A stretch of DNA of 64,000 bases from a virus. The stretch lies in IMG/VR virus record IMGVR_UViG_3300046820_004106, positions 1 through 64,000 of that record. One strand, given 5' to 3'. Position numbers and translations under genes: made by a program. Within the stretch, counting starts at the first letter, position 1. Every line of letters begins with the position of its first letter. The notes under the pieces were generated by a model that did no database searches, had not been told where the DNA came from, and saw only the letters and a program-made list of their open reading frames with translations. Shown here one piece after another: positions 603 through 35,420 of this stretch.

Positions 603-629
603 ATAATCTACAATGGCGTAGATTATTTT
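603..629 (+). terminator. Rho-independent terminator of mini-unit
   Basis: ATAATCTAC (603-611) and GTAGATTAT (618-626) form a perfect 9-bp stem with a six-base loop, followed by TTTT. It overlaps the stop codon of the convergent helicase gene. On the minus strand the stem is not followed by a T-run, so it is oriented for the 23-codon ORF. Confidence 0.65.
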
Positions 630-2389
630 AACTCATACATCTTCCAAGCACGTTCATTCTTATATACTTTCTTCCTCATATTTACGTGAGATCTCAAATT
701 CTTATGGCTTGAAGCAAAATCAATAATGATAGCTTCAGGTTTTCCGTTTTTAATAGAGTCTTCAACATTCTTGCCTACACATCGAAGTACTCTACCAACT
801 TGCTGATAAGTAGTAACTGGCGATGAACTAGTTCCAGCCAAAATCAAACAAGCAATCTTAGGAGCATCAACACCTACATTTGCCCATTGAGTTGCTATAA
901 GAACAATTTCATTATTTTCAACAGCATTAAGCATTCTTCTGCGATAATTCTTTTCCTCATCAGTTGGGTCTATTTCACCCTTATCACCACCAGGAACAAA
1001 AACAGCATCCTCAATCATCCCCTCAAGAATATTTCCGTGTTCCATTCTTTCAACAAGGATTAGTGTTGGAATTCCTTTTGCTTTCATACCTTCAGCAAAT
1101 TGTTTAATTCTAAAGTTTCTTTCCCAGCAATTTACAATATTTAGATTGTAAACCTCGTGATAAGTTTGACCAGGTTCTACAGTGCTGATATTTACAACAA
1201 AAATCTTAGGTGGTACAAGAAAACCACGTTCAACAAGATCGCTAGCACTTACTTCGCAGACTTTTCCACCCAATGTACCTTCAATCCTTATTTCTTGATT
1301 GTCAGTACGAAATGGTGTAGCACTCAAACCAAGCCTAAAATATGCCTTTTTAGCCTGATTTCCTATTTCTTCAGTAACAACAGCAGCCAAGTGTGCTTCA
1401 TCAATAATCAAGGCATTACAGCATTGAATTACGTTTCTTACTTGCGCTTTCTGAAATAATGTGTCTTGTCTATTATCCCAAGCTGTTTGTGCCTTCTTAT
1501 ATGCAGCTAATTCTGTTTTTACTAGTAGGCCAATTTCACGTTCATACTTTTTCCGTAGTTTGTCTGCATCTTTTGATTGATTTTCTTCTGCTGTTTCAAC
1601 TTGAACATACAAGTCAGAAAGTTTACCTGATGCAATTTGACGTGCTTTTTTGTATTTGGCTATAGCTTCATCTAATTCTTTTTGCAAGAGTCCAGTGGGT
1701 TTAGAGCCTTCACCAGTATCTTCTACTATTTTGTTATTGCTTTCCATATATTTTTTATCAAAAGCAATAAGGGCAGTTTGGTAGGTAATTACATTGATTC
1801 CTTCCATATTGATATCGCAGAGACCACCTCCAGCGATACCAACTTTGACAGGCTGGCCATCAATTTTAAGATATTTCTCAAATTCTTTTTGAGTTTGCTT
1901 TAGTAGTTCAATAGCTGGGACAATGAAAACTACCGGCTTAACTTTGAGTTTATGAAAGATATAACAAGAAGTCATTGTCTTTCCAGCACCAGTAGCCAGA
2001 GCAAGCATTCCACGTTGATTCTTGAGTGCTAAATCTCCTGAAATCTTTTGGTAGTCACGAAGATCTTTACCCATAAAATCACAATCTATATTGTAATCTC
2101 TGATAGGTTTTTCTCTCTTGTCAGTAAATTTGTATTGCTCATTTAAATCGTCAAGTAAACGAGCAACACGCATAGTAAGACCTGTTGGAAATGATTGAGT
2201 TCTCTTTACATACAAAGATATCAGTCCATCCCATTGACCAGTCTTGTATTTAGCAGACCATTCAGAATCTGGAACTTTATATGATAATTCGTTTCTCAAA
2301 GCTTCTTGATATGGATAAGGTAATTTACCCATTGGATCATTATGATTTATGATCACGCTTTTATCATTGTAAACTTCTATTTCTACCAT
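623..2389 (-). CDS. UvsW-like superfamily 2 DNA/RNA helicase
   Basis: A 588-aa SF2 helicase. The N-terminal segment has the KYKxGQWDGLISLY pattern (about residues 47-60) typical of UvsW-type N-terminal domains. Motifs seen: RDYQ (111-114), Walker A ATGAGKT (132-138), Walker B DEAH (about 329-332), motif III SATPFRTD (about 353), and motif VI QQVGRVLR (about 529). In T4, UvsW remodels recombination and replication intermediates; a similar role here is inference. Unusually, about 90 residues between Walker A and DEAH (roughly 225-315) are highly charged and predicted to be coiled coil, which lengthens the first RecA lobe beyond the usual UvsW size of about 500 aa. No Shine-Dalgarno site is visible; a TATACT box lies exactly six bases before ATG, so the mRNA may be leaderless. 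An 18-bp inverted repeat separates it from the upstream gene. Confidence 0.92.
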   Translation of the reverse strand: MVEIEVYNDKSVIINHNDPMGKLPYPYQEALRNELSYKVPDSEWSAKYKTGQWDGLISLYVKRTQSFPTGLTMRVARLLDDLNEQYKFTDKREKPIRDYNIDCDFMGKDLRDYQKISGDLALKNQRGMLALATGAGKTMTSCYIFHKLKVKPVVFIVPAIELLKQTQKEFEKYLKIDGQPVKVGIAGGGLCDINMEGINVITYQTALIAFDKKYMESNNKIVEDTGEGSKPTGLLQKELDEAIAKYKKARQIASGKLSDLYVQVETAEENQSKDADKLRKKYEREIGLLVKTELAAYKKAQTAWDNRQDTLFQKAQVRNVIQCCNALIIDEAHLAAVVTEEIGNQAKKAYFRLGLSATPFRTDNQEIRIEGTLGGKVCEVSASDLVERGFLVPPKIFVVNISTVEPGQTYHEVYNLNIVNCWERNFRIKQFAEGMKAKGIPTLILVERMEHGNILEGMIEDAVFVPGGDKGEIDPTDEEKNYRRRMLNAVENNEIVLIATQWANVGVDAPKIACLILAGTSSSPVTTYQQVGRVLRCVGKNVEDSIKNGKPEAIIIDFASSHKNLRSHVNMRKKVYKNERAWKMYELK

Positions 2390-2395
2390 TCAATC

Positions 2396-2401
2396 AGTAT
2401 A
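2396..2401 (-). promoter_or_regulatory. Extended -10 box, six bases before helicase ATG
   Basis: On the minus strand the sequence reads TGGTATACT, a TGn-extended -10, then six bases, then ATG. Transcription would start at or next to the A of ATG. No -35 box is evident. Confidence 0.55.
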
Positions 2402-2411
2402 CCATTAAGCA

Positions 2412-2449
2412 AAACAACCATTTTGTTGATGTCAACAAAATGGTTGTTT
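2412..2449 (-). terminator. 18-bp perfect inverted repeat, probable terminator
   Basis: Arms 2412-2429 and 2432-2449 are exact reverse complements with a two-base centre (really a 4-6 nt loop). On the minus strand the 3' arm ends in GGTTGTTT and runs on into TGCTT, a T-rich end consistent with termination after the holin-like gene. The helicase -10 box follows 10 bp later. An operator is an alternative reading. Confidence 0.6.
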
Positions 2450-2464
2450 GTAGAAAGAACAATC

Positions 2465-2899
2465 TTAACGATGATTCATAGCATTAAATTTATTAACAGC
2501 AATTTGAATTTGCTTTGGCTTCTTACCTACAAATGTTTCTAAAGTAGAAAGAACAAGCACATGAATCTTATCTACATCTTCTTCAGAAAGTTCAATGCCC
2601 TTTTGAGCACAGCCTAAACGAATAAATCTCACGAATTGATCTACTGCATCATCTTGTGAAAATTCTCCATCTTGAATCTTCTTAAGGCCTTCAATCCAAA
2701 TATCTAAAATGCCATCTGCTTTTGCACCAAGTTTGCTACGAAGAACAAGCTTGATAACTTCAAGAGTTTGTAAAGCTGCAGCACCCTCGGACTTCGATTT
2801 TGCTAAGAAAAAGAATACCACGCTGCCAAGAATGAAACAAACTACATAAACAATAATTTCATTCTGTGTTGAATTTAGAAAATTAGTAATTAATTCCAT
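2465..2899 (-). CDS. Holin-like single-pass membrane protein
   Basis: A 144-aa protein with a short polar N-terminus, one hydrophobic segment (about residues 13-33, rich in Ile, Val and Phe) and a soluble, mostly helical remainder with an acidic EELSEEDVDK-like stretch before the last helix. This layout resembles LLH-type phage holins, in which one N-terminal membrane helix precedes a helical cytoplasmic part; the match is by architecture only. ATG at 2897-2899 is preferred over the TTG three codons upstream because AAGGA lies nine bases before it. Just two bases separate it from the preceding small gene, so the two are co-transcribed. A structural or signalling membrane protein is an alternative. 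No endolysin is recognisable nearby. Confidence 0.7.
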   Translation of the reverse strand: MELITNFLNSTQNEIIVYVVCFILGSVVFFFLAKSKSEGAAALQTLEVIKLVLRSKLGAKADGILDIWIEGLKKIQDGEFSQDDAVDQFVRFIRLGCAQKGIELSEEDVDKIHVLVLSTLETFVGKKPKQIQIAVNKFNAMNHR

Positions 2900-2901
2900 A
2901 A

Positions 2902-3120
2902 TTAGCAATCCTTTGCAATAATTGAATCATCTTCATCAGATGCATTTGGGTCTAAATCCATATCTGTAGTCAAAGGAATAACTAATTCATCTTTGATTTG
3001 TGCAGTAACAGCATCGTCTTTCTTTTCGTCTGCCCAAACAAGATTATCAGCCATTACTTCTTCGCCTTCAGCATTAGTAAACTTTTCAATCTTGCCTGTA
3101 GCTCTTTTTACCATACTCAT
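2902..3120 (-). CDS. Small acidic protein, unknown
   Basis: A 72-aa protein with a basic N-terminus ([11 protein letters not shown]) and an acidic, Asp-rich C-terminal half ending in Cys; no domain recognised. The start is ATG at 3118-3120 with AAAGGAGG eight bases upstream, located inside the end of the DnaJ gene. The ATGA overlap with the DnaJ stop indicates translational coupling. It sits between the chaperone and the holin-like gene; no function can be assigned. Confidence 0.75.
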
Positions 3121-4100
3121 AACATTTGCCTCCTTTTCCTAGATTCGACATATGATTTTAAAAATTGTGATTCTTCATCAGAAATTTCTTTAGGAATTTT
3201 ATACATTATTTTGAGGTGTAAGTCAGAATATGTATCATTTGATGTTGGAATCCCCTTACTCTTAACTATATGTACGTAGCCATTCTTTAAACTATTACTA
3301 AATTTAAAGTTTAATTTATTTCCATTTACGTGATTGTATTTAAATTCAGGATTTATAAGTGCAGCAATCGGATCAATTTCAAACTCGTGAACAAGATTTA
3401 AATTAGCATCAATTTCAAATTTTTCTCTTTTTCTGGTAATTACTTCAACAATAAGTGGCCCAGCCGCTTGATAAATATCTCCGTGATTTCCTCTGCCTTG
3501 GATCATAGACGATCTGTAAACGTGTCCTTTGTTTATTGTCAGATCAAAATTTTCAAACATTTTTACATGACCAGAGCCGTTACAATAATTGCAAAATGCA
3601 TCAAACTTTTCACCACGGCCATAACAACTTCCACAAGGACCAGCATAATTTCGAACGTGCATAAAACCCAAATCTTGAACTATATAATGTTCTCCTGATC
3701 CCATACAAGACATACAAAGACTTTTATTTCCACTACCACCAACTCCTGAACAAGCTCCACAAGGCACTAAACGCTCATAATTAAGAGTTTTTACGACATT
3801 TTTGTAAACCTCTTCTAATTCAAGTTCAATAGTAACTGTTATTGGAGTATTAAGATTTTTCCTAAATGGATTTCTAGTGGTATTTCTAAATGGATTTGCA
3901 GGTGGTTCAAAATGATGTTGCGGAGGAGGGGGATTTAAGATATCTTCATATGCTTGAGATATTTCTTTAAATTTTTCTTCTGATCCAGCCTCTTTATTTA
4001 CATCAGGATGGTATTGCTTGGCTAATTTTCTATAGGCCTTTTTTGCATCATCTACTGAAGCATTTTGTGGCAAACCTAAAACATCATATGGATTTGGCAT
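3117..4100 (-). CDS. dnaJ: DnaJ-type co-chaperone with zinc-finger domain
   Basis: A 327-aa type I J-protein. The J domain occupies residues 1-60, with HPD at 31-33. Instead of a Gly/Phe region there is a Pro/His/Phe/Asn-rich linker (57-80). Four CxxC motifs (C114/117, C129/132, C156/159, C170/173), three of them followed by GxG, form the two-site zinc domain, and a C-terminal peptide-binding region follows. J-proteins stimulate ATP hydrolysis by DnaK and deliver unfolded clients. No dnaK is visible, so it probably recruits the host Hsp70, plausibly to help fold or assemble the giant tail proteins. It is shorter than E. coli DnaJ (about 376 aa). There is no ribosome site; TATAAT stands exactly six bases before ATG and overlaps the protease stop. 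Confidence 0.93.
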
Positions 4101-4106
4101 AAAGTC

Positions 4107-4112
4107 ATTATA
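4107..4112 (-). promoter_or_regulatory. TATAAT six bases before dnaJ ATG
   Basis: A perfect -10 consensus on the minus strand, overlapping the TAA stop of the S1 protease gene, followed by six bases and ATG. With no Shine-Dalgarno site present, it may create a leaderless dnaJ mRNA internal to the operon. Confidence 0.45.
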
Positions 4113-4782
4113 CTAATTTGGATAACATATTGGTAATTTTATTAGAAGGACATAAAGTATTTTCACCAACGCCAATATCAGCGTGTTGTCCAGTTACACC
4201 AATTACTGTTCCTATAACAAGATTGTCAGTTCCAATTGCCATACCGCCAGATGAACCTTCAAGAATATCTGCATCTACAAAAATTACATCAGTCCAGGCA
4301 GGTAAATTTATATCATTAATATTTTGATGAATATTTGAAACTCTACCAACAGTGGCTGTGTCGTGAAAACCCTCTGGAGAACCAATCACTGCTACAATAT
4401 CACCAACTTCTATTGTATCACTGTTGGCAAACTGTAATGATGGGATATTTGATGGTATTCTTTCTGCTCTTATAGCTCCAGAGTCTATCGTGGGATCAGA
4501 AATTAAAAATGTAGCTGGAATAAAATTTTTATTATCAAATGAAATAAGAATTTCTGTCAAAGTTTCATCTGCTGGGACAACGTGTCCAGCAGTTATGATA
4601 ATATTATTGCCAATATGAAATCCACTACCTGACCAATTTTTCTTTCCAGATCTCACATAAATAGAACAAGAAGCTTGAAGTCCCAATTGTATTGTTTTTT
4701 TAATTGGATCTTCAAGCTTTTCTGCGCTTTGGCTAGTCTTAATTAGACTATCCAAATAATTAACATCTAATTTAAAATTCAT
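4108..4782 (-). CDS. Trypsin-like (S1 family) serine protease
   Basis: A 224-aa chymotrypsin-fold protease of the HtrA-like or V8-like kind. The triad is readable: His67 in TAGHVV, Asp100 in TIDSGAI and Ser178 in GSSGG. GSGF before the His region and VIGSPEG between the Asp and Ser motifs are also typical. There is no signal peptide, membrane anchor or PDZ domain; the first 35 residues are a polar helical extension. It overlaps the signal peptidase stop by ATGA, so the two are translationally coupled. Targets are unknown: processing of virion proteins, or degradation of host proteins late in infection, both fit. Confidence 0.9.
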
Positions 4783-5237
4783 TGTATTACTTTGTACAAA
4801 ATCTCAGTTTCATCTACAGTTCCAAATCTTCTACTATCATCTGACTTTGGTAAATTATCACCGACAAGATAATAATGTTTTTTAGGAACCTTTAATTCCA
4901 TCATATATACGTCATCTACATTCTTTATTTTCAGAATTGAATGGTATGAATTATCAATTATTAGCTCATAAACACCATCTTTATTCATTATATAATAATA
5001 ATATTCTTCCGGCGTATACAATATTCTTTTAACGATCAGAGTTCTATCATCACTCAAAGCAACTACAACATCACTTTTTTTGAAATTTTTAGTTTTTTTA
5101 GCTAACAAAATCTGTCCATTTTTATAAGTTGGGAACATAGATTCACCAACAACAACGACCAATTTGTAAGGTTGTAAGTATGCTAATAAAAGTAAAATAC
5201 AACCAATTACCAAAGAAACAATTAATCTCTTTTTCAT
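4779..5237 (-). CDS. lepB: Type I signal peptidase (S26 family)
   Basis: A 152-aa protein with one N-terminal membrane segment (about residues 4-22) followed at once by the catalytic region. The nucleophile is Ser33 in GESMFPT and the general base is Lys70 in LIVKRI. The conserved box GDN-x3-SxDSRxxG is present at 126-139. These are the landmarks of bacterial type I signal peptidases, which cut signal peptides on the outer face of the cytoplasmic membrane; the length fits the small Gram-positive-type enzymes. Phage-encoded copies are uncommon. GAGGTG lies four bases before ATG and may be partly masked by a hairpin. It forms an operon with two other serine proteases. The substrate is not evident; none of the tail proteins here has a clear signal peptide. 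Confidence 0.92.
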   Translation of the reverse strand: MKKRLIVSLVIGCILLLLAYLQPYKLVVVVGESMFPTYKNGQILLAKKTKNFKKSDVVVALSDDRTLIVKRILYTPEEYYYYIMNKDGVYELIIDNSYHSILKIKNVDDVYMMELKVPKKHYYLVGDNLPKSDDSRRFGTVDETEILYKVIQ

Positions 5238-5268
5238 GCTTCACCTCTTGTAATAAAAGGAGCTGAAG
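5238..5268 (-). promoter_or_regulatory. Possible hairpin masking the lepB ribosome site
   Basis: On the minus strand CTTCAGCTCCT precedes AAGAGGTGAAGC, and CTTCA plus part of CTCC can pair with the GGTGAAG that includes the Shine-Dalgarno site. The pairing is short (five to seven pairs with a bulge), so regulation is tentative. Confidence 0.25.
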
Positions 5269-5299
5269 ACATTTTTTCTTTTTAGCTTTTTGCTCGTAG

Positions 5300-6262
5300 T
5301 TAAGATTTTTTAACAGTGATAGTTGACCAATCAATATTTGCAAGTTTAGGAACACCAGGGCCCCAATTTTGTTCTTCTCCAGGTTGAACGTTTACATTTT
5401 GTAAACTTGAAATATTTCTTAATGCAGTCATCATATCTTCTTGGCAAAATTGGTAACCAAATTCTGGAAGAAGATTCTGATTTTTCAGTGCAGCTTTTAT
5501 CAATGCACAAATACCAGCAACAAATGGAGCTGCTTGACTTGTACCTGACATTTTACAGTAGTTATTATTCAAGTGAGTTGAATAAATATTAGTGCCTGGA
5601 GCAACAATGTCCACTGTAAAATCCCTTGAGGTGAAAGTGGCTAAATTACCACTTTCATCCAGTGCAGCAACAGCAATAACTTCATCGTATCTTGCTGGGT
5701 AATTAACTGCGTGTGAATCGTTTCCAGCAGCTGCAACTACTATAATTCCTTTTGAAACTGCTTCTTTAATTAAGTCGTGAATAAAACTTGGTGGTTCAGA
5801 TGGTGCACCCAGAGACATATTAATAATGTCCACACCTAAATCAATTGCTTTTCTCAAACCTGCAGCAATTGTGTCATAACTTCCACCACCACTATTGTCA
5901 AGAACTCTAATGCAATATAGTTTTGCTTTAGGAGCTACACCAACAACACCAAAATCATTATCAGAGCCAGCAATAATTCCGGCTACGTGTACTTGATGAC
6001 CGCTTCCTGCATCATACACACTTGCTTCACCTGTGCAATTGACTGCCTCATCGACCTTCCAAGCTTCTGCTAAATCTGCGTGTTCTGAAAAACCAGTATC
6101 AAGAACTGCTACTTTAATACCTTCACCTTGCTTAGAAACTTCCCAAACATCTTGAATGTTTGCAATAGCCATACCCCAGTTTTGAGTCTGCGATAATGCT
6201 GCAAACGGAACCGATACAACTTTTAAGTCTTCTTCAGGAATAAATTGAATTCTATCTTGCAT
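5300..6262 (-). CDS. Subtilisin-like (S8) serine protease, intracellular type
   Basis: A 320-aa subtilase with a complete triad: Asp55 in VLDTGF, His89 in SGHQVHVAG and Ser242 in SGTSQAAPFVAG, with oxyanion Asn181 in AAAGND. It has no signal peptide and no long prodomain; a short N-terminal extension with FIPEED resembles the LIPY-type extension of intracellular subtilisins, which blocks the active site until removed. The start is ATG at 6260-6262, six codons inside the longest frame, because GAGGTG lies five bases upstream. It lies directly downstream of the 2860-aa fibre gene and upstream of two more serine proteases. Maturation of virion proteins or digestion of host proteins are both possible roles. 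Confidence 0.93.
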   Translation of the reverse strand: MQDRIQFIPEEDLKVVSVPFAALSQTQNWGMAIANIQDVWEVSKQGEGIKVAVLDTGFSEHADLAEAWKVDEAVNCTGEASVYDAGSGHQVHVAGIIAGSDNDFGVVGVAPKAKLYCIRVLDNSGGGSYDTIAAGLRKAIDLGVDIINMSLGAPSEPPSFIHDLIKEAVSKGIIVVAAAGNDSHAVNYPARYDEVIAVAALDESGNLATFTSRDFTVDIVAPGTNIYSTHLNNNYCKMSGTSQAAPFVAGICALIKAALKNQNLLPEFGYQFCQEDMMTALRNISSLQNVNVQPGEEQNWGPGVPKLANIDWSTITVKKS

Positions 6263-6279
6263 AATTTCACCTCGATACA

Positions 6280-6285
6280 ATTATA
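6280..6285 (-). promoter_or_regulatory. Candidate -10 TATAAT for the protease cassette
   Basis: A perfect TATAAT in the 52-bp gap upstream of the S8 gene, giving a leader of about 11 nt that would include GAGGTG. No -35 box is recognisable and the surroundings are very AT-rich, so chance is possible. Confidence 0.35.
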
Positions 6286-6314: not shown

Positions 6315-9300
6315 TCAGACTATGTGAAGAATTTGACTTTCTATTGGTGTTCCGTAAGTGGTTCCATCATAAGGCTTGACAATAAAAGAAATTGCCATAT
6401 TTCTCAAAACCACAGCAGAGTTTAATAAACTACCTTCTGCTATTTTATTTGACACTCCATTAGTCCATTCAAACCATTCAATGGTGGATAAATCTGAAGA
6501 TCCATTAAAATTATAATAGGCTTGAAGAACACTGTTGGCAGAAATTTTACTGTCAACTATTGTATTTGTTGACTTAATTTGAACATCGTACACATAAGGC
6601 GCAGACAAACTTTTGACAATTATTGGTTGTGAAGTGTATGTGATTCCATAATCAAAATTATCATTAGGTTCAAGAGTAACATAAACTTGATCGTTTATGT
6701 TAAAATAACCATTGGCAGCATTCAAATCTGCTTTTCTTTGAACCAATTTATCTCTGTAATTAGGTGTGGAATCTAATTCTTCAGTGGTTGTTCCGCCACC
6801 AGATGTTCTTGTCCTGTACCATCTTGTTCTTGGTTTATATTGCTGATTATCGGAAATATAACTGTAATCAACATACATTCTTGAAGAACTTGAAATTTGT
6901 TTTGTAGATCCGACAGATGCATAAGAAACATCTGAATTGATTACTAAACTTTCAGCTTTCAATGATGGAATATTAGTATTCAAATAATGAGAATATACAT
7001 TTGAATTTGAAACAGTATTATGAGTAAATTCAAAGTTATAAGTTGTTGATGCAGTAGAAGAATATGTCTCTACTTTTAATCCCAATCTATATGTTGAACT
7101 TTGAAGAATGAATAAAGTAATAATATCGGTTGCAGATTTATTAGTATCAAATATAATTTTGCCATCATATCTGTCTAACTTGTATCCACCACGAACTATC
7201 TCGTTGTTGACAAGCACTACAATCTTGCTGTCTTCAGGCCATCTTCCATTTACAGCATAATAGTTCTTGTAATCTGTAGAAACTGTACCTTCACCATAAG
7301 CTTCATACCTTGAACCAGTTCTACTAATTGAAACTTGAACAATGTTTCCTAATGGCACTTCTTGTCGGAATGTTATAGTTCCATTTACATTGTCAATAGT
7401 GTAAAGATTGGTAGCAACAAGAGAAGAATTTAAATAAACTTCAACATTGTCCGAAAGAAGCCAAGTAAATCTAGTGTTGTCATTATATACAAAGTAAGTA
7501 AAATTATTATTTACAGACTTTACGCAGGTAAGTTTGTCATAAAATAAAGCATTTGTATATTTGTATGATCTTTGTCTTGAAGAAATTATTCCATTTTTAT
7601 TTTTGATTAATTCTTCATAATCATTCCAATTTGTACTGTTTCCTTTGCATATGCCCCAAGTCAATTTAGCTTTATCAGTGTCAGAATAGTCTGTTGAAAG
7701 AATGTATTCAAAAATATCATCTGTGGAAGTTAAAGCAGTTGTAAATAAATAGTTGACAGCTGGAGATACTTCAGTGTAATATAATTGACTTACATAAGGA
7801 GAAATTGGTAGACTGGTAGAATTATTCCATCCTTCTGTCATATTAATTTGAAAATCTAAATTTGTAATTTCTTTATTAACAATAGATGTGGCAGTTAATG
7901 TAATCCAATCGCTGTAATTCTTCTTATCTGTGGAATATTTGTATTTGACTACGCAAGAACTATCTACACTTTGCCCTGTAGAAACTGTGTATGCTGTAGT
8001 AATTGATTTTATAAATTTAGAAGTTTCAAATTCTACAGATTTATTCCAAGAACCAGCAAATATTGTATTAGATCCACCGTGCAATAAAGCTGTAGTAATT
8101 CCAGACCAATAAGAGCTAGAAGCATCAAAATACAATCCATCTGTATTTTGCACTAATTGTCTTATGTTTCCAGTGTTTGTTTTATCATCCACACCAAATA
8201 CAACTAATTTTGTACCTTGATTGCCCCAGCTGTAATTAATATTGTCTTCAATACTCTTAATAGAAACTGATGTATTGTTATCAGCATCAGAAACAATAAA
8301 TGTTAATGGAATGTATGAACTAGCCAATCTTTCCATCATATATTTTGAAACTGTAGGATTGTTTGGAATTGAATCTGCCAAGCCATTCCAATCTTGTCTT
8401 AAATATACTTCTACTTGATCTGTATTTCCAATTGATGTAGTAAATGATACTTTGCCTGTAGATGGAATTACTGTATATCCTGAACCTAAAACTGCACCAT
8501 TCTTAATTACTTCAGCATATGGATAATCTGTAGTATTCCAAGTAAATGTGTTTGTACCATCAGTTGAAAAAGTAAGTGTAGAGCCAATAGAGCTGCCGAT
8601 TTTAGGAACAAGATTTAATTGCTTATTGCTTTCATTCTTGTATCTTTCTTTTAATAAATCGAGTCTTATTAAGTTTTCATCTGACAAGTAATCCTTGTAA
8701 GTTGAAATTAAAGATGTGTCTGCTATTCCTGAAATTGCTGCTGGTTGTTGTCCTATTAAAGCATATTCAAGACAGTCATATAAATTACTATTTTCACCAT
8801 CAAGTTTTAAGGAATTGATTATTGATGTTATAGCTGTTCCTGAATTTGTGAAACCATTGCCCGTTTCGTGTTTTATAGATGTGCCAAAAGTCCAAAGGTC
8901 TGCAAAAGAAAATTGAGCATAATATTGTTGATTTGTTCTAGCAAAAATATTTGTCAAAAGACTATTGTATCCATTTACAAATCCTGACGACATTTTCATA
9001 GAAGCAGAATTATCAAATACATTAGAAATTACAAATTTTGGCTTAAGATACAAATAACCATCATCGCTAGAAATTACACCTTTGCTAACACCGCTATCCC
9101 AATTTACTTCGGTGTTATCATAATTGCCAATAGGAACAATGGTTTCTATTGGAGCATATGAATTGTCATAATGAGCTCTGAAGAAAAAGTCATAACTTGT
9201 GCTAATTCCAGTCCAACTTATAGCGTTTGAACTTGAATATCCTAATCCTGAAAATGGATTATTTGTTGATGCTTTCTTCCACTTAAATAGAGGAACAGAG

Positions 9301-12300
9301 CTTGCAGTTTCTTTTATGACAAGTGCTAATGTTGTTGATCCTGTACCTGGAATATCTAATGCACTTATGAGATTGAAACTTGTAAATCCACCAACATTAA
9401 CGCTAGAAGATGTAATAGGACTTGACGCAGCTAATTGTGTTTGTGGTTTTACATTGGCATCTACAGAATAAACATAAGCTGTTAAAGTTGTATTTGCTAA
9501 ACTGTCATTGTAAGAAGAATTGGAAAGTCCATCTTGTTCCCTAATTGACAAGAATGCAGATACTTTTGATATTGTGCTTGCTGTTGATGATGTAGTGAAA
9601 GTTTGAGCTAAATATCCAACAGAGCCACTATCACTTGCAATGAATCTTATGTCATTTGAAGGCTTGGATGAGAATAAAACTGGGCTATATCCTTCACTTG
9701 TATTCTCACCAGTTCTATACCAGCAATCACCATCATCAAGAGTATACCAAATTCCGTTATTCGTACAAGCCACCAAAACATTTTGAGTAATAGAATTAAA
9801 TGTGGAGGAAAATACTTGTAGATCATAAACACAAGTTGGCAGAGTACCGATATAATCAGATCTTTCAAAAGTATTTCCTTCATCGAAAGATCTATACACT
9901 CCATTATTTGTTCCGATATAAATTTTTGATCTACCAGGAGTATTACCAACAGCAGCTTCAGTGTCAATAGCATAAGAGAAACAATGAAGTCCTCTTAAAT
10001 ATCTACTATCAACAATAAAATCAGAAGAATTTACATCATCAGGGTAAGAATATTTCCAGTTTCTTACCTTTAAAATTCCATCATTTGTAAGGATAAACAA
10101 TGAATTTGCATATGTAGTTGTATTTGTTGAAGAAGGAACACTATATGCTTGGAAAGATTTGTAATACTTGCTTACACCTTCAGGATTGCCAGAAATAAAC
10201 ATTTTTCTGGGAACGAGAAATGATGAGAATGATGAATATTGAGTGTCATTACCCATCACAAAATAACCATCATCTCCTGCTGCGTGTAAACTTTCAAATT
10301 CTTGCACATTACCTAAACTATTCTTGATATATGTGCCCTTGAAAATTCCATTTACATTATTAGTAGTAAGTTTCAAAAAATCAGATAAGAAATTGGTTGT
10401 TCCTAATTTGACACTTAATCCATCACTTGTTGCAAATGCTTCGAATAAAGTGCCATTCCAGAAACCAGTGAGATAAGCATTTTGTCTTGCTGATGATGTT
10501 TGCTTTATCCAAGAACTGTCATATTTCCAAAGACCATTAGAAGCGCCAGCAATTACATTAAGATTTGGATCAAGAGCAATATAATTAGCATCAAAAGCGC
10601 CATCTAATGTGCTTTCAAGTTCCCAATATTTAGTGTATTTCCAAACACCCTTCTCTGTAATAATTCTAGTTCCAGTACCATCTTTTGTGAGATTGACAAT
10701 TCCCTTAACTTGAATTGGGTCGCTTTCAAAATCATTTACAGTAGGAACAAGTTCAGTTCTATTTTTGAATGATGAATTTAAGCTATCAAATTTAGCATTA
10801 CTTGAAAAATTATCAACTAGTAATGTATTTTTCAAACCTCTTGTATCAGTCTGTGAAATTGTTGGTGCAGTGAAATCAAAAATAGTTGAATTTAATGATT
10901 TGATCTTTCTTGCTAATTCTTGAATATTAGAATTATTTTCTGATGCTAAATTGTAGGTTTGGTTGGATATAGCAAGATACAAATCATCTTCCAATCCAGA
11001 TACAATCTCGTTTTTTATTCCATAAACTTCAGCGCCAACGTCGTAAGTAGTTGTGCTTGTAAGTCTTGCTACAGATAAAGTTATTTCAATAGGAAATACA
11101 GTATTGTCAATAGATTTAACTACTGCTATTTCATATTTATTACCAGCTTTCAATTGTATTAAAGAATAATTGCTAATTCTCTGATTGATATATATTTTAG
11201 TATCAGTGTTAGAGTTTGCTTTCGCTAATAATGCAATAGGCGTTTTAGTCTTGAAAAGGGGTACATAAGTAGAAGAATGTGGCTTTGTTCCGGCATCAGA
11301 TATTGTTGGAAAATCATTTACTATAGATATCTTTACATTATCGACATCGTTCTTTAATACTGACTGTGTAAAAGTGATTTTGCCTTCAGATGGACTGGAA
11401 TAAAATGGAATAGTGCTAGGTTCATTGTTTATATAAGTAAAAATTCTAGTACTGTCTGTTTGTGTGTCAGTCCAAGGGTCAGTGGTAAATGTATTAAAAC
11501 TCTTTTCATAATATAACTGATCGCCTGAGACATAGGTAGATCCCATAGCTACTAATTGATATGGATAATTTAAAGTAAAATTAGATACTTGATTATAATT
11601 TTTATCAAATACTGAGAATTCTGTCTCATTTTCAGAAAAAGTATCGTTAGGTCTTTTCCATCGATAATTCAAAGAAACTGTGCTGGATACGTTTACATCT
11701 TGCCACAATAATTCAGTGCTAACAAAGATGCCATTTGTTGTTCCAGCATACAACTTACCAAAATTACTGCCATCATCATAACTGTAAAGTGCATTTGTCG
11801 AACCTTGGAAGACAGGCTCCCAAAAAAGTTCAGAATAGGCTACAGATGTTCCTAATGATGATTCTTGGACTCTTGCAATGCCATTAGAATGTCCAATGAA
11901 ATAATCTGTTGGAAATGTTGTTGAATTTCTTTGAACAACACAATTGATGACACTACTTGAACCAGCTCCAGAAGGTGTTGAATTTTGATATATCTTTAAT
12001 CTTTGAATTTCCCATAGCACATCAGAAGTGCCAAAATCAAATGCATCTTCAATAACAAGATACCAAGTACTGTCGTTATTTACAATTCCGTTTGATACGT
12101 ATACTGTTTTCCAATTAATAAATTCAGCATTTACATCAAGTTCGGTTGATCTAGTCCAACTTCCAGCAGATACAATATAAATTCCATTTTCAGCTTTATT
12201 AGTTTGATTTTTGACAAGAACAATATTACCAGCAATAACAGCAACACCATCAATAGTTTGCGTTCCAGTGAGTGCTATATCTTCTGTTGTGGCGCATAAA

Positions 12301-14897
12301 GCATTTGAGAAAGATGTTGATGTTTGTGAAAATGGAAGAGACCAATACTTACCTGTAGCATCTTCATAATATTTTGCTGTGTGAGTGATAAATGCCTGAT
12401 AATCATTCCACCAGATAAGATTATTTTTGTATGCGCCATCTTTAATCCAATAAATTCCCTTTACTGGCTCGTTAAATATTTGAGATAATTGGCTAAAATC
12501 ACCAAAGTATAAACCTTTCGTACTAGTGCCAATTGCTCCAACATACAGTGCTCTTTGAATTGTAATGTCATCAGTCTCACCAGAAACAAATATAGTTTTC
12601 TGTGTTGATATTTCTTCAATTCCAGAAAGATTATAAATATTTGTAATTGCTGTACCTGAAGAATTGTAGAAAGAGGAAATTTCATTCCAATTCCAGTTTT
12701 GATATGCTGTATTGTCAGGAATTATAGCATAGTAAACTTTTTCAGATGATAAACCATATTGATAAGTCTGATATGTTCCATCAGCTAATTTATCAGAAGA
12801 AATCTTAAAGCCAACTAATGTTTTTGCAATTCCACTAGTGTCTGTTGGTAATTTCAAATTTTCCCAAACATTACTTGTATTGTTATAATAAACTTTACCT
12901 AAAGAAGTGAAAGCATAAACATTCTTAAAGTAGTTTTCATTTGTTGGATAAATTATGTTATCTTGAAGCGATAAAATTTTTCCATAATCATTTTGCCAGT
13001 TAGTTGTTTGCGCTGTGTTACTACCTAAATTGAAGCTAAACAATCCTCTAGAAGATGATGTGTAAATCAAATTCAAACTAGTAATAATGTTTGCACTCTT
13101 ATAGAAGTAGCTAATGTCATCGTTGTATTGAATGTAAGAATTTGTATTTTGAGGATACAGATATGACTTTCCAATTCCAGTGGTTAAAAATTTGTCTGGA
13201 GTAAAAGTCAAAGGTTGCTTATATCTATTCTCGCTGTAATGATTGATCTTTAAATTATTTATTGAAACCTTGCCTGTAGATATGCTATTGGCAGATAAAT
13301 TCTTTATGTAATCATTTGTAAGATTGTTTATAATTTCAGTCTTACGTGTTTTAATTACAACAGATAAATCAAGGAAAGTATATTGATCATAATTAGGTAT
13401 AGAACTTTTCAGTAATATACAGCCAGAATAAGGATTAACTGTATAGTGAACTGGATCTATCAATGTTTCTGCCAAATAAACTTCAGCAGTATCATATTGA
13501 AAATTTGTCCAAGAGAATAAGGTGTAAAGGTCAGTGGTTAGACCAGAAGCATTTGTGTATTGATAAATTGTTCCATCACTTAATTTGATATATGTGTTGA
13601 ATGTAAGGGCTGTAGATAATAATTCTTGGCTACTATTTACTGCTATTAAATTTTTATCAACAGCATATGGTAAATACACCTCAAGCTTGGATGTTGATTT
13701 GATGCTTTGGTTTAGATAAATCTTATATGGGCTACTTGATTCACTTATTGTGTATTCTGAACTGGAAAGAAGAATGCCATCAAGTTTAACAATAGGTGTA
13801 CCGTATGAAGAAATGGTGTCATTAAATAAGGTTCCATCAGAATTCTTCAATACAAAAATTGAAGAATTTTCATAGCTTGAAACTCCATCATTAGAAGAAG
13901 CTATCAAAACTAAATAATTTTTAAGATCTATCTTTGCTGCAGTGTTTATTTCACCCAGATGCTTATGCTTCAAATAAGATAATTGAAGTTGTCTCTGAAA
14001 TTCTCCAGCAGTTTCATTTATTTGATTTCTTCTTTCTTCGTATATAATTTCTGAAACAGTATTGAAATCAGTGTATGTAGTGTCTGCTTTGTAAATTACT
14101 GTGGCTAGATATACAGCATTTGAATAAGTGTTATATTTTGCATCTGGAATTGATGGAAAAGATATATTGCAAATTTCATCTGATAAGGTTGATATTCCAG
14201 ATTCAGCCCAAGCATAAAAAGTATTTGCTATAGTTTGTCTAAAATAACGGGGTTTTTCAGTTTTGGCAGCATATTTATCAATAATTCCATCACCTGTACT
14301 AACTTTTATGCATTGTTTGAAAGCATCTTGGAAATAGAGGTTTGATGAGCCTAAAGTAAAGTTTGTTGATGAAACTGCGCCAAGCCAAAGTGTTTTTTCG
14401 TTAGTTGATCCAGAACTTACAAAAACAACAAAATTATCAGAATAATCAGATGTTGTATTGAGACTTGAATGTCTTGTCCAGGTTGAAGATGAAACAGTGT
14501 AAACGCCATTTTGTGTAGCTGTAGATTGATCTTTTACTAATACAATATCGCCAGCAACAACAGAAACTCCATCAATAGTTTGTGCGCCAGAAAGAGTGAT
14601 ATTTATTGTGGTAGCTGCTAAACAAGATACAGTGAAATCCAGATTTAATAGTGATAACTTTTGTCCATATTCACTTGTAGCGCTTGTATTATATCCATCT
14701 AGAAGTAATATTTGATCAGCTCTATTTTCTGATAATTTAGATACATCCCAGCCATTTATAACTCCAGGACCTAAAAAAGAGTATATGCCTGAAAAATTAG
14801 ATTCAGCTGTAAGCATATTTTCATAGTCATAACCTGGATACCAAATATCGCCAAATTGTGAAAATAAAAACTTGTAAATTGATGTACGATTAGCCAT
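6315..14897 (-). CDS. 2860-aa multidomain fibre/baseplate protein with vWA domain
   Basis: A giant virion protein. The N-terminus (1-90) contains GPGVINGWDVSK. Two TIDG modules follow (about 91-190 and 865-970), with TIDGV..AGDIVLVKDQ and NGIY signatures. A KHKHLG fibre motif is near residue 310. Propeller-like stretches end in Asp boxes (SFDEGNTF near 1667, TLDDGDCW near 1720). A beta-sandwich domain seen in two other genes here covers about 1745-1890. A von Willebrand A domain spans about 1955-2260: MIDAS DNSAS at Asp1962, SNLYDCLEYAL, FIVSDAD, and LVVFGVDD..TDGLYFDAS. At least five short beta modules with the pattern V.NG...YTID...G.ITF recur, one of them inside the vWA domain. Probable role: receptor binding or tail-tip structure. 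A weak AGGT site precedes ATG; the stop is TGA. Confidence 0.85.
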   Translation of the reverse strand: MANRTSIYKFLFSQFGDIWYPGYDYENMLTAESNFSGIYSFLGPGVINGWDVSKLSENRADQILLLDGYNTSATSEYGQKLSLLNLDFTVSCLAATTINITLSGAQTIDGVSVVAGDIVLVKDQSTATQNGVYTVSSSTWTRHSSLNTTSDYSDNFVVFVSSGSTNEKTLWLGAVSSTNFTLGSSNLYFQDAFKQCIKVSTGDGIIDKYAAKTEKPRYFRQTIANTFYAWAESGISTLSDEICNISFPSIPDAKYNTYSNAVYLATVIYKADTTYTDFNTVSEIIYEERRNQINETAGEFQRQLQLSYLKHKHLGEINTAAKIDLKNYLVLIASSNDGVSSYENSSIFVLKNSDGTLFNDTISSYGTPIVKLDGILLSSSEYTISESSSPYKIYLNQSIKSTSKLEVYLPYAVDKNLIAVNSSQELLSTALTFNTYIKLSDGTIYQYTNASGLTTDLYTLFSWTNFQYDTAEVYLAETLIDPVHYTVNPYSGCILLKSSIPNYDQYTFLDLSVVIKTRKTEIINNLTNDYIKNLSANSISTGKVSINNLKINHYSENRYKQPLTFTPDKFLTTGIGKSYLYPQNTNSYIQYNDDISYFYKSANIITSLNLIYTSSSRGLFSFNLGSNTAQTTNWQNDYGKILSLQDNIIYPTNENYFKNVYAFTSLGKVYYNNTSNVWENLKLPTDTSGIAKTLVGFKISSDKLADGTYQTYQYGLSSEKVYYAIIPDNTAYQNWNWNEISSFYNSSGTAITNIYNLSGIEEISTQKTIFVSGETDDITIQRALYVGAIGTSTKGLYFGDFSQLSQIFNEPVKGIYWIKDGAYKNNLIWWNDYQAFITHTAKYYEDATGKYWSLPFSQTSTSFSNALCATTEDIALTGTQTIDGVAVIAGNIVLVKNQTNKAENGIYIVSAGSWTRSTELDVNAEFINWKTVYVSNGIVNNDSTWYLVIEDAFDFGTSDVLWEIQRLKIYQNSTPSGAGSSSVINCVVQRNSTTFPTDYFIGHSNGIARVQESSLGTSVAYSELFWEPVFQGSTNALYSYDDGSNFGKLYAGTTNGIFVSTELLWQDVNVSSTVSLNYRWKRPNDTFSENETEFSVFDKNYNQVSNFTLNYPYQLVAMGSTYVSGDQLYYEKSFNTFTTDPWTDTQTDSTRIFTYINNEPSTIPFYSSPSEGKITFTQSVLKNDVDNVKISIVNDFPTISDAGTKPHSSTYVPLFKTKTPIALLAKANSNTDTKIYINQRISNYSLIQLKAGNKYEIAVVKSIDNTVFPIEITLSVARLTSTTTYDVGAEVYGIKNEIVSGLEDDLYLAISNQTYNLASENNSNIQELARKIKSLNSTIFDFTAPTISQTDTRGLKNTLLVDNFSSNAKFDSLNSSFKNRTELVPTVNDFESDPIQVKGIVNLTKDGTGTRIITEKGVWKYTKYWELESTLDGAFDANYIALDPNLNVIAGASNGLWKYDSSWIKQTSSARQNAYLTGFWNGTLFEAFATSDGLSVKLGTTNFLSDFLKLTTNNVNGIFKGTYIKNSLGNVQEFESLHAAGDDGYFVMGNDTQYSSFSSFLVPRKMFISGNPEGVSKYYKSFQAYSVPSSTNTTTYANSLFILTNDGILKVRNWKYSYPDDVNSSDFIVDSRYLRGLHCFSYAIDTEAAVGNTPGRSKIYIGTNNGVYRSFDEGNTFERSDYIGTLPTCVYDLQVFSSTFNSITQNVLVACTNNGIWYTLDDGDCWYRTGENTSEGYSPVLFSSKPSNDIRFIASDSGSVGYLAQTFTTSSTASTISKVSAFLSIREQDGLSNSSYNDSLANTTLTAYVYSVDANVKPQTQLAASSPITSSSVNVGGFTSFNLISALDIPGTGSTTLALVIKETASSVPLFKWKKASTNNPFSGLGYSSSNAISWTGISTSYDFFFRAHYDNSYAPIETIVPIGNYDNTEVNWDSGVSKGVISSDDGYLYLKPKFVISNVFDNSASMKMSSGFVNGYNSLLTNIFARTNQQYYAQFSFADLWTFGTSIKHETGNGFTNSGTAITSIINSLKLDGENSNLYDCLEYALIGQQPAAISGIADTSLISTYKDYLSDENLIRLDLLKERYKNESNKQLNLVPKIGSSIGSTLTFSTDGTNTFTWNTTDYPYAEVIKNGAVLGSGYTVIPSTGKVSFTTSIGNTDQVEVYLRQDWNGLADSIPNNPTVSKYMMERLASSYIPLTFIVSDADNNTSVSIKSIEDNINYSWGNQGTKLVVFGVDDKTNTGNIRQLVQNTDGLYFDASSSYWSGITTALLHGGSNTIFAGSWNKSVEFETSKFIKSITTAYTVSTGQSVDSSCVVKYKYSTDKKNYSDWITLTATSIVNKEITNLDFQINMTEGWNNSTSLPISPYVSQLYYTEVSPAVNYLFTTALTSTDDIFEYILSTDYSDTDKAKLTWGICKGNSTNWNDYEELIKNKNGIISSRQRSYKYTNALFYDKLTCVKSVNNNFTYFVYNDNTRFTWLLSDNVEVYLNSSLVATNLYTIDNVNGTITFRQEVPLGNIVQVSISRTGSRYEAYGEGTVSTDYKNYYAVNGRWPEDSKIVVLVNNEIVRGGYKLDRYDGKIIFDTNKSATDIITLFILQSSTYRLGLKVETYSSTASTTYNFEFTHNTVSNSNVYSHYLNTNIPSLKAESLVINSDVSYASVGSTKQISSSSRMYVDYSYISDNQQYKPRTRWYRTRTSGGGTTTEELDSTPNYRDKLVQRKADLNAANGYFNINDQVYVTLEPNDNFDYGITYTSQPIIVKSLSAPYVYDVQIKSTNTIVDSKISANSVLQAYYNFNGSSDLSTIEWFEWTNGVSNKIAEGSLLNSAVVLRNMAISFIVKPYDGTTYGTPIESQILHIV

Positions 14898-20259: not shown

Positions 20260-23225
20260 TATGGTTTGATATTTCCATAGTGTCCACTCAAAAACAATTT
20301 GCCTTTATAACTTATTGCTGTTAAAGGCCGAATGACACCGTATAAAGTATAATTCCCAGCATTATCAAATATTTTTTTTCTTTCAAAAGTAATATCTTCT
20401 AAAAACCAACTTTCTGCATTAGAGTTATAATAAAAAATCTTACTTTGTCTATCATTTGGATTTTCAGAAATTTTGTCGCTTATAAACCCATCAGTAGCAC
20501 AATATAGTGTTCCATCGTGGTAAGTGAATAACCTAACTCCACCTGTTGAAGGAAGAACAACAGATTGATTAAAATCAATCGTTTTAACATTTGTAGGTTC
20601 ATAAGTTTCACCAATAATAAAAGAAACATCCATATAGCCTACTAAAGAATCTCCTGCATTATTATCAATTTTTCCAAACTGAATGAATGGATGATCATAA
20701 TCATTGGTATTAGCGTTAGCATCTAAATATTTTGAACTATACGTGTCCAAAGAAATGAAGTTTTTCTTCTCTATAAATGGATTTTTTTGTTGACCAAGAT
20801 AAATCTTTATATCTCTATCTTCTACAATCCATCTTATTTTTGAAAGTTTATTATTTATATCAAAAACATCTTCATTTGATTGTATTTGTATCAAATCAAT
20901 AACAATCTCATTAGGTCTATCATTATTTTCTGGAAGATCTGCAAATTCAATTTGTAGTTTGCCAATAGTTCCTTTCCAAATTGGTGAAATTTTATATTGT
21001 ATGTATTCATCCGAGGTGTGCATAGCTGTATCTGCACTTATATTGAAAATTCCACCTTCATAAGCCCAATAAGCTTTTATTTTGCCAAGACATAATGTTT
21101 TTGATTTTGGTTTTGCTTTTACTCTAATTGAAATTACAGAATTAAGATCTACTTCTAAATTTAAGTTATCAATTACAATACTAGGATTTCCAGTTAAAGC
21201 AGGTGTGATTTTTAAAACATATTTTTCATAAGGATCATTAAAAATATCATAGTTTAATTCTGTGGTTGCTGATAAATTCGAAATAAATTTACCAATAACC
21301 CAAGATTGTTCATCAGAAGAAACAACACCATTATTAATTGAATAAAATTGCCAATCAGCTATTAATCCTGTAGTTATAATATCTTTTTCAATAGAATTCA
21401 TACCACTTGATAATTTCATTTTTGTTGAATTAAATTCTATTGAATATTGTCCATACAGATCTGCTATTTTAAATCCTTGATATCCATCAAGTGAATTCGT
21501 TGGTATTTGCTCTGAACTATTCAATGTAGTTTCATTGCGTAAATCTAAAGATGTTGCAGCTTGACTAGTATTTAAATTTATAACTTTAGTTTCTAAAGTG
21601 TAGCTAGGTTTATAAACTACAAAATTTCCTGATGTTAAATAGTCAGAATAATTTAATAGATATCTATTACCTGTATTGATGTATCCAGTTTCAATGTAAA
21701 ATCCCAAAACTGTACTACCAGATACAATATATTGAGTAATATTTACTAATGATGGGGTGTTGTTTATACCATTGTAAACATACACACCATTATAAATTCC
21801 ATTAATTCCAGATACAGTTTGATCTTTTAGCAAAAATAAGTCATTTATTACTAAATCGTGTCCATCAATTGATGTAAAATTATTCCAACTGGAGATAGCT
21901 TCCCAGGATGCACACTTTACATTAATATAATCTTGACTTGGTAAATTTTCACGGAGAAGCTGTTCCCAATCAGATCCTTCAGAAATTTCATATAATCTTG
22001 AACCATAAGAAGTGGCGCCTGTTGAAGAAACTGTATTTCCCTTGATAACTAAAAATTCATTAAATTGTTGATGATTATTTTCTTTTGGAAATCTTGCGAT
22101 AGCTACATTATCATCATTTCTTGAAAGTGTATTACTATCATATGAGTAATATTGAGCTGGAGCTGGGTCATTCATAAAAATTTCATCAAAAATTATTGAA
22201 GTCCAACTTTCATCAGTTTCTGGATTTGATAACGGTATTTCAGTGTAAGACCATATTTCTGGTTTTTTATCAATGCCAGCAAGAACTTGATTTTTTCCTA
22301 CTGCTAAACATCTAATACCAAAATCTGAAGCTTCGTAATCAGTAATATTATTTGAAATAATTGTTGAAGTTTCTAAAGATTCAGTCTCTGTTTCCTTGAC
22401 TATCACTTCTTCTGTAATAAGATTTGTAGGTTCAGAAAGAGAAATAGTAAGTGTTCTTGAATATCTATGTATTTTTTTGTTTAAGCTTCCTAGGAACAAT
22501 TTATTGTAAGCAGAAACCATAGAAAGAATGCCACCAGAATTTGCTGCTAATTGACCAAATGGATAAACCTGTTCCCACTGACTGCCATTATATGCAGAAC
22601 TTAATTTTGCTCTAAATAATCTTGGCAATTGATCAGAAGCAACATACAAATAAGGTTCAGTTTCGTGCTCAAATTTGTGTGATATCATTGCAGAAGCTGA
22701 TAAATCTACATTATTTTCTTGAAGAATAAATACTGGTCCACTAATGTATTCACCATTGTAGAACCAAATTTTTCCAGAAACTCCAGAGAGATAAATACCA
22801 TCGTCAGAAGCAACCATAGATGTAATTGCTCTTTCTCCTTGATTAGAAAAATCAATTATCTTTTCAAATGAAACAAGATTAGCTGTATGAATTGATGCGT
22901 AATATTTTTCTAAAACTACATTTATAGTTGAAGCAGAAATTGGTGTATCAAAAATTAAGTAATTTTTGTAATCGTCAACACCATAATTTACAGAAGAATT
23001 GACTGTAAGTTCATCTTGAGAATTTACTTTGTAAATTCTACCTAGGTCTTCTGGATTGGTGCCAACAAGCTTAAATGCAGTACCAGCAGTGTATGAGGGA
23101 TCCAAACTATCTACCAAAGATATATTTGTAAATCTTTTCTTTGTAATGCCAGAAAAATATAATATTTTTTCGCTGTCGTTTGGACCTTTCCAAGAACAAC
23201 TAGCTGTAAAAATTGTTGACACCAT
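20259..23225 (-). CDS. 988-aa propeller-containing fibre protein
   Basis: Blade-like repeats near both ends (about 130-350 and 890-988), for example [20 protein letters not shown] and [14 protein letters not shown], suggest beta-propeller structure, perhaps one propeller closed by N- and C-terminal parts. Between them lies one TIDG-type module (about 445-490, [18 protein letters not shown]) and a beta-sandwich resembling a LamG or carbohydrate-binding fold (about 600-860). The C-terminus stops within a blade ([12 protein letters not shown]), so the propeller may be completed by another part of the chain or by another subunit. TAGGAG precedes ATG by 11 bases. It is linked by TAATG overlaps to both neighbours. 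Confidence 0.8.
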
Positions 23226-26200
23226 TATACTTTTGGTCTCCTAATTGCATTCCACTTAACTTCAGGTTGAGTAATATTATTTCCAAAGTCTCTAAACTTA
23301 ATTTCAACTTTCTTAACTCCATCACTTTCGCCCGTAAAATCAACCTTTACATATGGTGAATAAGGAATCCACTCTGACCAAGAACCATTTCCAGTATCTA
23401 ATAGTCTTCTTATTTGAAAATCCTTAATTCCAGACACCAAATCAAATCCATCAATTTTCATCCAAGATTGAGGTAAATTAGATATTAAGGTTTCTTGATT
23501 TGTTTTAGGATCAAAGAAACTTACTGTTCCAAACGGCTCTTGTGTATCTACTAAAGCTTGAGAAGTAGCAACAAAACTCACAGGATTTGATTCAGATACA
23601 TTTCCCATAAAGTCCATCAATTGAACCCATATCTTTCTTTGACCAGAATATCCAATGTTTTGATTTTGGAATGCTGTGTTTTGAGGACCCAAAGCATAAT
23701 AGTTTAAGTGTCCATAAAGATACAAATAATATTTATTTTCTTCATTTACAATAAACTTATTCCACGGCAACCAAGGACTGTAATTTATAAAAGAATTATC
23801 AATCTCTTTGCCTACTCTAAATGCAAGAATTCCAGATTCATTATCTTCAGCTTGGATAGATAGTTGAACCATTCTTAAGGTAGATTCATTTGCAACTAAA
23901 ATATTTGGCACATCACCAAGATAAGTTGGCGGGTTAATATCTACTCTTGAAGGAACACTTAAAGTAGTTGGGTAACTTGAAATATTTCCGTGTGATAAAG
24001 TTCTTACTCTGTATTGAATAGAATTATTTTGTGTAGAATTTACAGCTTTTTCTTCATATCTAGTATGCAGTTTATGCCACAGATTATTGGCTCTTCTATA
24101 TCCAGAAAATTCACCATTTTGGATGTAATCAACATTGGAAAGTTCAATACCATTAGCTCTTCCAAGCGCTGAGTTAAATGGAACTGTTATTGCCACCCAA
24201 ATTACATCTGATTGAGATACATTGTTAGTCCAATCTGAATCATCAAATTTTACTTGAACTAAATTGTTATTAGGGCTATTAGTAAAACCAGCTACAAATG
24301 GGTTGTATGAAACAGATTTCCACGAAGTTAATGGATTATTATAATTTGGTAAAGAGCCTAAGTTTCCAAAAAATCTTATTTTTAATTCTTGCATTGGGAA
24401 AGATTTATCATTCCCATTCCAATGTAATTTAAACTCAAATAATTTTGGTTTTGTTGAGGAAATAAAACTTGAGATTTCACCTAATGTAATTGCCTTGAAA
24501 AAAGTAGTACTGATAAATCTATCAACTAAATTTCCATTAAATGTTACTTCTGATTTGTACCAGTTTGTATTAGCATTTATAGTTCCACCAGTTACTCTTA
24601 AGGGTAAATTGTAATCTGTAGTTGTTATGGCAAATCCAGATACTGATTTTACATAAACACCATTTTCAGTATTTTCTATTTGATCCTTAACTAAAATTTT
24701 ACTTCCAATTACCAAAGATGAAAGTGAAGTACCATCAATTGTTAATGAAGTAATATTAGCAATTGAAATATTTGTGCCTGTAGTTGCTAACGAAATTTGT
24801 TCTACTTCAGGCTGAACTGCAGAAAAAGTTAAATTTGAAGTTCCAAGCACTATAGGATCTGGTGTTGTTAGGTACCACTTTGTACTTGCATAAGCATAAT
24901 CTATTGGAGTTCTAACCAACATACCTGAAAATACTTCTTCACTCGAGTTCATTTCTGGAACTCTTTCTAATCTCCAGGTCGTTGAAGCAGTTCCAACTCT
25001 AGTTTGATAATAAACGCCATTTTGTGAAGTTGTTGCTTGACCTGCTACTAAAATATAATCTGAAGTAGACAACACATTATTTCCATTGAGCACCAATGTA
25101 CCAGCAGTTCCAGCTGTCAATCTATTTGATGAATATGTTGGAGAGTTTGGTAAAGCAGTAAAACTATATTGTTGGACTTCAAGAGTCAATTTTGGAAGTG
25201 TATTAGCTGTTTCGTATTGATAATCAATTAAATCAGTTAGTCCACTTAATAATTTTTGTCCAAGATAATGTTTTGCGTTTGTAAATCCTTCGTCAGAAAG
25301 AAGTGTAGTTTTGATTGTACTATCATTATCAAATTGTTCTTTGTAAACATTTGGAACACCAGACCATTTCAAATCTTGAAAATATGTTGAACCATCATTG
25401 TTGTAAGAACTTTTTCTTACTCCAAAGCCTACAAAGTACCCTAATCCTGAAGTGTTAGAATTTACAGGTAAAAGCATATCAGTAACACCGATCAGATTGA
25501 TTCCGCTGCTAGTAATTTCTTTAACCAGTAAATATGTTCCAGTAGATGTTCTGTTTTTATACCTGCCAGTATATGAGTTTGGCAATTGATCTGTCAATTC
25601 AAATAAAAATTTTGTGATTTCCGTTTTTGGTTGATATGATCTTAAGACTTGTCTTCTTAATTTATTATCTTCAGTTCTATAAGATACTGATATTTCATTT
25701 TTCTCTCCACTAAACTTAACTAAAATAGTTGGGGCATTAAGTGGAGCGTCAGTGTATGCAAAGCCATCATCACATCTTACTCCAAAAGGTCTGTCCCAAT
25801 TCACAGTAAGATTGTTTTTAGTATGAGACCTGAATGATGATACTGAACTAAAAGCAACATAAACATCATCAGAACCGTGCTTGAAAGCTAATTCAAATCT
25901 ACATTTATTACTCAATGATGGTTTATATAATTGTAGTTCGTAATGTAAAGGAACAGTATAGGCATTTAAATTATCAAGTTTATCTACCTCATACAATAAA
26001 GATGTAATATTTGTATTGAAAGATAAATCATTAGGTGCGTCTGTAAGAACAATAAAATCTTCATTAACTGAATCACTCCATCCGTATTCAATTTCTGTCA
26101 CAGGAGCATTCATAATTGACAAATCATCGTTCGTACAATCACCGATATCTATGGATAATTTAGATTTACCTTGAGCTAAAAATAATTCTTCTACTACTAA

Positions 26201-35395: not shown

Positions 35396-35420
35396 AAAAA
35401 TAAAAAGGGTTTATACCTTT
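35395..35420 (-). terminator. Weak terminator after the PKD protein gene
   Basis: On the minus strand AAAGG-TATAAAC-CCTTT is followed by TTATTTTTT. The stem is only five pairs and overlaps the stop codon, so it would be leaky; it separates the 3461-aa gene from the hub-like gene. Confidence 0.4.

Follow-up and report, generated by a model that had tools for sequence, protein, structure and literature searches.

The window analysed here, a stretch of 64,000 nucleotides, is part of the IMG/VR virus record IMGVR_UViG_3300046820_004106, which has 122,087 bases. Its minus strand carries a single open frame (6315..14897) for a giant protein of 2860 amino acids, in which residue i starts at window position 14897-3(i-1), and full-length orthologues are encoded in other viral contigs. 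The gene belongs to a run of giant minus-strand genes, one of which has a baseplate-hub match. Two PHROG domains of the tail-fibre or decoration type were detected in the protein, the first at residues 83-227 (14217..14651, minus; phrog_11518, E 3e-48), with similar stretches in named phages, and the second at residues 868-963 (12009..12296, minus; phrog_2647 and phrog_17264). These two domain copies, together with the giant-gene run and its baseplate-hub match, make the protein a probable tail fibre. The phrog_11518-type domain occurs in annotated tail fibres and in head-decoration proteins alike, so that this match does not prove a fibre; the preliminary description of a virion fibre protein is plausible. 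No relative of the giant protein was found in named phages outside the decoration domain. A decoration-type domain like that of the fibre also lies near residue 840 of a 1451-aa protein (23225-27580, minus), while the largest frame of the giant-gene run (35419-45804, minus; 3461 aa) gave no PHROG match. The Sheath and Terminase_6N models had no match in three records, namely that of the window and two relatives.

The fibre gene is followed on the same strand by a block of genes (623-6280) encoding an S8 subtilase, an S26 signal-peptidase-like protein, a trypsin-like protease, DnaJ, a small protein and a UvsW-like helicase. The subtilase lies directly downstream of the fibre gene (5300..6280, minus; PF00082, E 2.4e-58), in the same position in all sampled clades. 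Indeed, the gene order from the fibre to the helicase is identical in all of these clades, which is the most notable feature of the neighbourhood, and the catalytic motifs of the three unrelated protease families look intact by eye. This conserved protease/DnaJ block hints that folding and cleavage of the giant proteins may accompany assembly, or that the virion may carry a protease with it.

Residues 1953-2275, in the last third of the giant protein, span a divergent von Willebrand A (vWA) domain, which had been proposed, with an intact metal site (MIDAS), for residues 1950-2270. That range proved correct, and all of the motifs quoted for it were found in the minus-strand frame at 6315-14897. 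The N-terminal half of the domain, from strand 1 to helix 3, covers residues 1953-2054 (8736..9041, minus), as delimited by alignments of 15 orthologues, by a profile alignment to vWAs and by a sub-threshold VWA_2 match, and the C-terminal half, from strand 4 to strand 6, covers residues 2177-2275 (8073..8369, minus), according to the orthologue alignment, AlphaFold and the profile alignment. MIDAS motif 1 is DNSAS (D1962-N-S1964-A-S1966; 9000..9014, minus). Motif 2 is S2037 (8787..8789, minus), directly followed by the NLYD helix start at residues 2038-2041 (8775-8786, minus). Motif 3 is D2204 (8286..8288, minus) within IVSDAD, residues 2201-2206 (8280-8297, minus). The stretches LVVFGVDD (residues 2231-2238; 8184-8207, minus) and TDGLYFDAS (residues 2252-2260; 8118-8144, minus) were, like NLYD and IVSDAD, read directly in the frame.

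We then compared the domain in orthologues collected from viral contigs, which gave an alignment of 15 rows. They fall into about five clades: the window with L001, L002 and L007; L015-L018; L010, L028 and L029; L031, L032, L033 and L052; and L053. All five MIDAS ligand positions were found to be retained in the 15 orthologues, at identities down to 35%. The D, S and S of motif 1 and the D of motif 3 (D12, S14, S16 and D132 in L015 numbering) are invariant, and motif 2 is Ser or Thr in 15/15. The MIDAS threonine position is occupied by Ser in most members, including the window, and by Thr in L031 and L032. Motif 3 reads SDGD in L053 and TDGD in L031, L032 and L052, and textbook vWA motifs are present in L053 (FDDSQSM and VSDGD) and in L052 (IDTSVS and LTDGDE).

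The assignment of the fold was examined by profiles, family searches and structure prediction. A MIDAS-style composite pattern was matched once by the real protein and by 4 of 3000 shuffled versions of it, and the corresponding control for L015 gave 6 of 3000. Single reference vWAs gave too little signal in hhalign, and a deeper reference set of 82 vWAs (80 of the YfbK type and two of phage SCTP-2) was used instead; against it, the core profile scored 23.9 in one collinear alignment that spans 148 columns and pairs the MIDAS positions, whereas the best of 100 column shuffles reached 19.5, over short stretches, so that the real alignment beat 100/100. A Pfam search of the full giant protein gave no match. 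The N-terminal vWA half alone matched VWA_2 with E 0.056, and an insert-less relative did so with E 0.005 and 17.9 bits (18.7 bits in the genome search); all of the scores obtained, 14.5-18.7 bits, lie below the Pfam cut-off of 27 bits, and VWA_2 was the sole Pfam family matched by more than one member of the orthologue set. AlphaFold modelled the domain with its insert (8 sequences) at a low confidence of pLDDT 39.5, and the insert-less L015 version (15 sequences) at pLDDT 51.8 and pTM 0.54 with an alternating beta/alpha order. The best PDB fold matches of the L015 model were mainly vWA domains, namely those of ITIH1, the CD11b I domain, Tfb4 (a TFIIH subunit), collagen VI, factor B, C2 and CMG2; in this search with a low-confidence model the top probability was 0.97 and none of the matches reached E 0.001. 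The structure prediction suggested in the preliminary description gave an order of elements that fits a vWA, in a model of low confidence. PDB sequence searches returned only spurious matches, such as a lectin and a cullin, tblastn of the domain against named phages gave nothing convincing, and a genome scan for its cellular relatives found none. Taken together, the MIDAS conservation, the profile alignment and the fold search make it highly probable that residues 1953-2275 are a vWA domain, and they support the proposal of this fold with an intact MIDAS, the ligands being conserved in all clades.

The motifs are real, but they do not lie in one uninterrupted vWA. The domain is split by a segment of 122 amino acids, residues 2055-2176 (8370..8735, minus), which was overlooked by the first reading and sits between helix 3 (the NLYD helix) and strand 4. 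Four contigs (L015, L016, L017 and L018) lack exactly this 122-aa block, in frame, and retain the flanking vWA; outside the insert, the L015 protein is ~92% identical to that of the window. The simplest reading is that the insert-less state of the L015 group arose by loss, since all other orthologue groups carry a homologous insert; the absence could also have come about through recombination. A short CAAT stretch is found at each end of the block. A beta-module with the pattern KNGxxLxSGYTVxPSTGKVSF lies in the second half of the insert and has a paralogue in the same protein at residues ~2462-2525 (7323..7514, minus; hhalign E 2.9e-5, probability 74%); residues near 456-505 and 2538-2597 match it more weakly. 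By the usual vWA topology, the insert would leave the fold at the face opposite the MIDAS, so that it probably lies outside the metal site and acts as a spacer or an additional surface. The literature searched contained no description of a phage vWA with a beta-module inside it. The form with the insert and the natural form without it, so similar elsewhere, make a ready-made pair for probing the function of the nested module in the fibre.

A MIDAS holds a divalent metal whose last ligand, as is well established in integrin I domains, comes from an acidic residue on the partner. By analogy, D1962, S1964, S1966, S2037 and D2204 would hold a divalent metal, a partner protein would supply the remaining ligand through an acidic side chain, and the vWA would thus serve as a metal-dependent docking site on the fibre. 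We infer the metal binding, the ligand and the position on the virion alike. As an overall explanation, a metal-dependent docking site formed by a functional-looking MIDAS vWA on a probable giant tail fibre stands about evenly poised between right and wrong. A protein on the host surface is the most likely partner, with a chance of roughly one half, and another virion protein comes next, as a somewhat less probable choice. The receptor-binding tips of phages studied to date are, to our knowledge, mostly beta-structured and lack a MIDAS. The retention of every metal ligand in this conserved vWA of a giant fibre raises the testable question of whether adsorption of such phages depends on a divalent metal there.

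The strongest alternative, which we consider a serious though lesser possibility, is that the vWA docks to another virion protein and serves the structure or assembly of the fibre or baseplate, with the host bound by other domains or fibres. The position of the vWA is indeed constant across the clades, and its rate of change is close to the mean for the giant protein, so that nothing marks it as a variable host-range tip, and the idea of a hypervariable tip was rejected. The faster change that a receptor-binding tip might show is absent, which counts against docking to the host. Without the insert-less clade, it is not among the fastest-changing parts, with a mild rise in its C-terminal half, and the low identity at residues 2141-2230 comes partly from the deletion junction of that clade. 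The adjacent DnaJ and three-protease block, which suggests that giant proteins undergo folding and processing, also fits virion docking, as does the service of vWA cochaperones in phage virion assembly elsewhere (PMC7824862). However, no partner is known for such docking, and the decoration- and fibre-type domains of this chain speak for a position at the surface.

A more elaborate form of host docking appears improbable, in which the fibre would bind a protein on the host surface through a metal, as integrins do, the plug-in beta-module, kept or lost between close relatives, would tune reach or specificity, and the three proteases and DnaJ of the gene block would mature or arm the fibre. Also doubtful is a genuine vWA whose MIDAS takes no part in ligand binding, the metal only stabilising a domain that acts as a spacer in the fibre; the substitution of Ser for Thr in the majority of members and the keeping or loss of the insert with no visible effect on the rest would suit such a spacer, but the five ligand positions all persist at the lowest identities. 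Finally, a coincidence of motifs in some other alpha/beta domain, for which the low model confidence and the sub-threshold family scores leave some room, is very unlikely in view of both shuffle controls, the family-wide conservation of exactly the MIDAS columns and the dominance of vWA structures among the fold matches.

The metal-dependent docking site preferred here can be compared with known systems. The DxSxS-T-D metal site, with Ser for Thr in the window, is common to this vWA and to the CD11b integrin I domain and inter-alpha-inhibitor heavy chain 1, which are among the best fold matches but are animal proteins with 8-14% identity, and we know of no nested beta-module of this kind in either. 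In an integrin-type adhesin the I domain is inserted in a beta-propeller. The window protein has two conserved, beta-propeller-like Asp-box motifs, SFDEGNTF and TLDDGDCW, before the vWA (9720..9890, minus), recognised by orthologue comparison and by a pattern count above that of shuffles; the pair is kept in 6/6 full-length orthologues compared, with SVNEGNSF as one variant. No conserved Asp-box was seen C-terminal of the vWA, and the Pfam search detected no propeller family in the giant protein.

A MIDAS-bearing vWA in a probable giant phage fibre is of a kind already known, here with a nested module that one clade lacks. The remark that such domains are unusual in phage tails was therefore only partly right, since 0305phi8-36 gp164, eCIS fibres and SCTP-2 gp141 carry them. 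In Bacillus phage 0305phi8-36, a vWA was reported in 2007 for gp164, which is encoded in the baseplate/fibre region, along with the swapping of domains among relatives (PMC2147016). Compared by description, both proteins hold the vWA centrally in a large protein of that region and vary in domain content among relatives, but relatives of 0305phi8-36 have the entire vWA replaced, whereas in the window family it stays and the nested module is missing in one clade. Tail fibres of the eCIS group eBAP4 are associated with VWA domains (PMC12923769); by description, these likewise link the domain to fibres of phage-tail-like particles, but they belong to bacterial injection systems, not viruses. Further phage vWAs belong to non-structural proteins, among them CobT (PMC8651126) and MoxR-linked cochaperones (PMC7824862).

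The gp141 of Salicola phage SCTP-2 (MF360958 139271-148561; 3096 aa, annotated as hypothetical) has two nearly identical canonical vWAs at residues ~1920 and ~2905. Like the window protein, it is giant, carries the canonical MIDAS and adjoins another giant gene and a UvsW helicase, and it comes from an isolated jumbo phage; it differs in its two tandemly similar vWA copies, which lack the insert of the window family. Orthology of the two proteins was rejected outside the vWA, where no significant similarity was found. Among the fibre orthologues, that of L028 sits on a contig of 358,269 bases, so that some of these viruses, at least, reach the size of jumbo phages.
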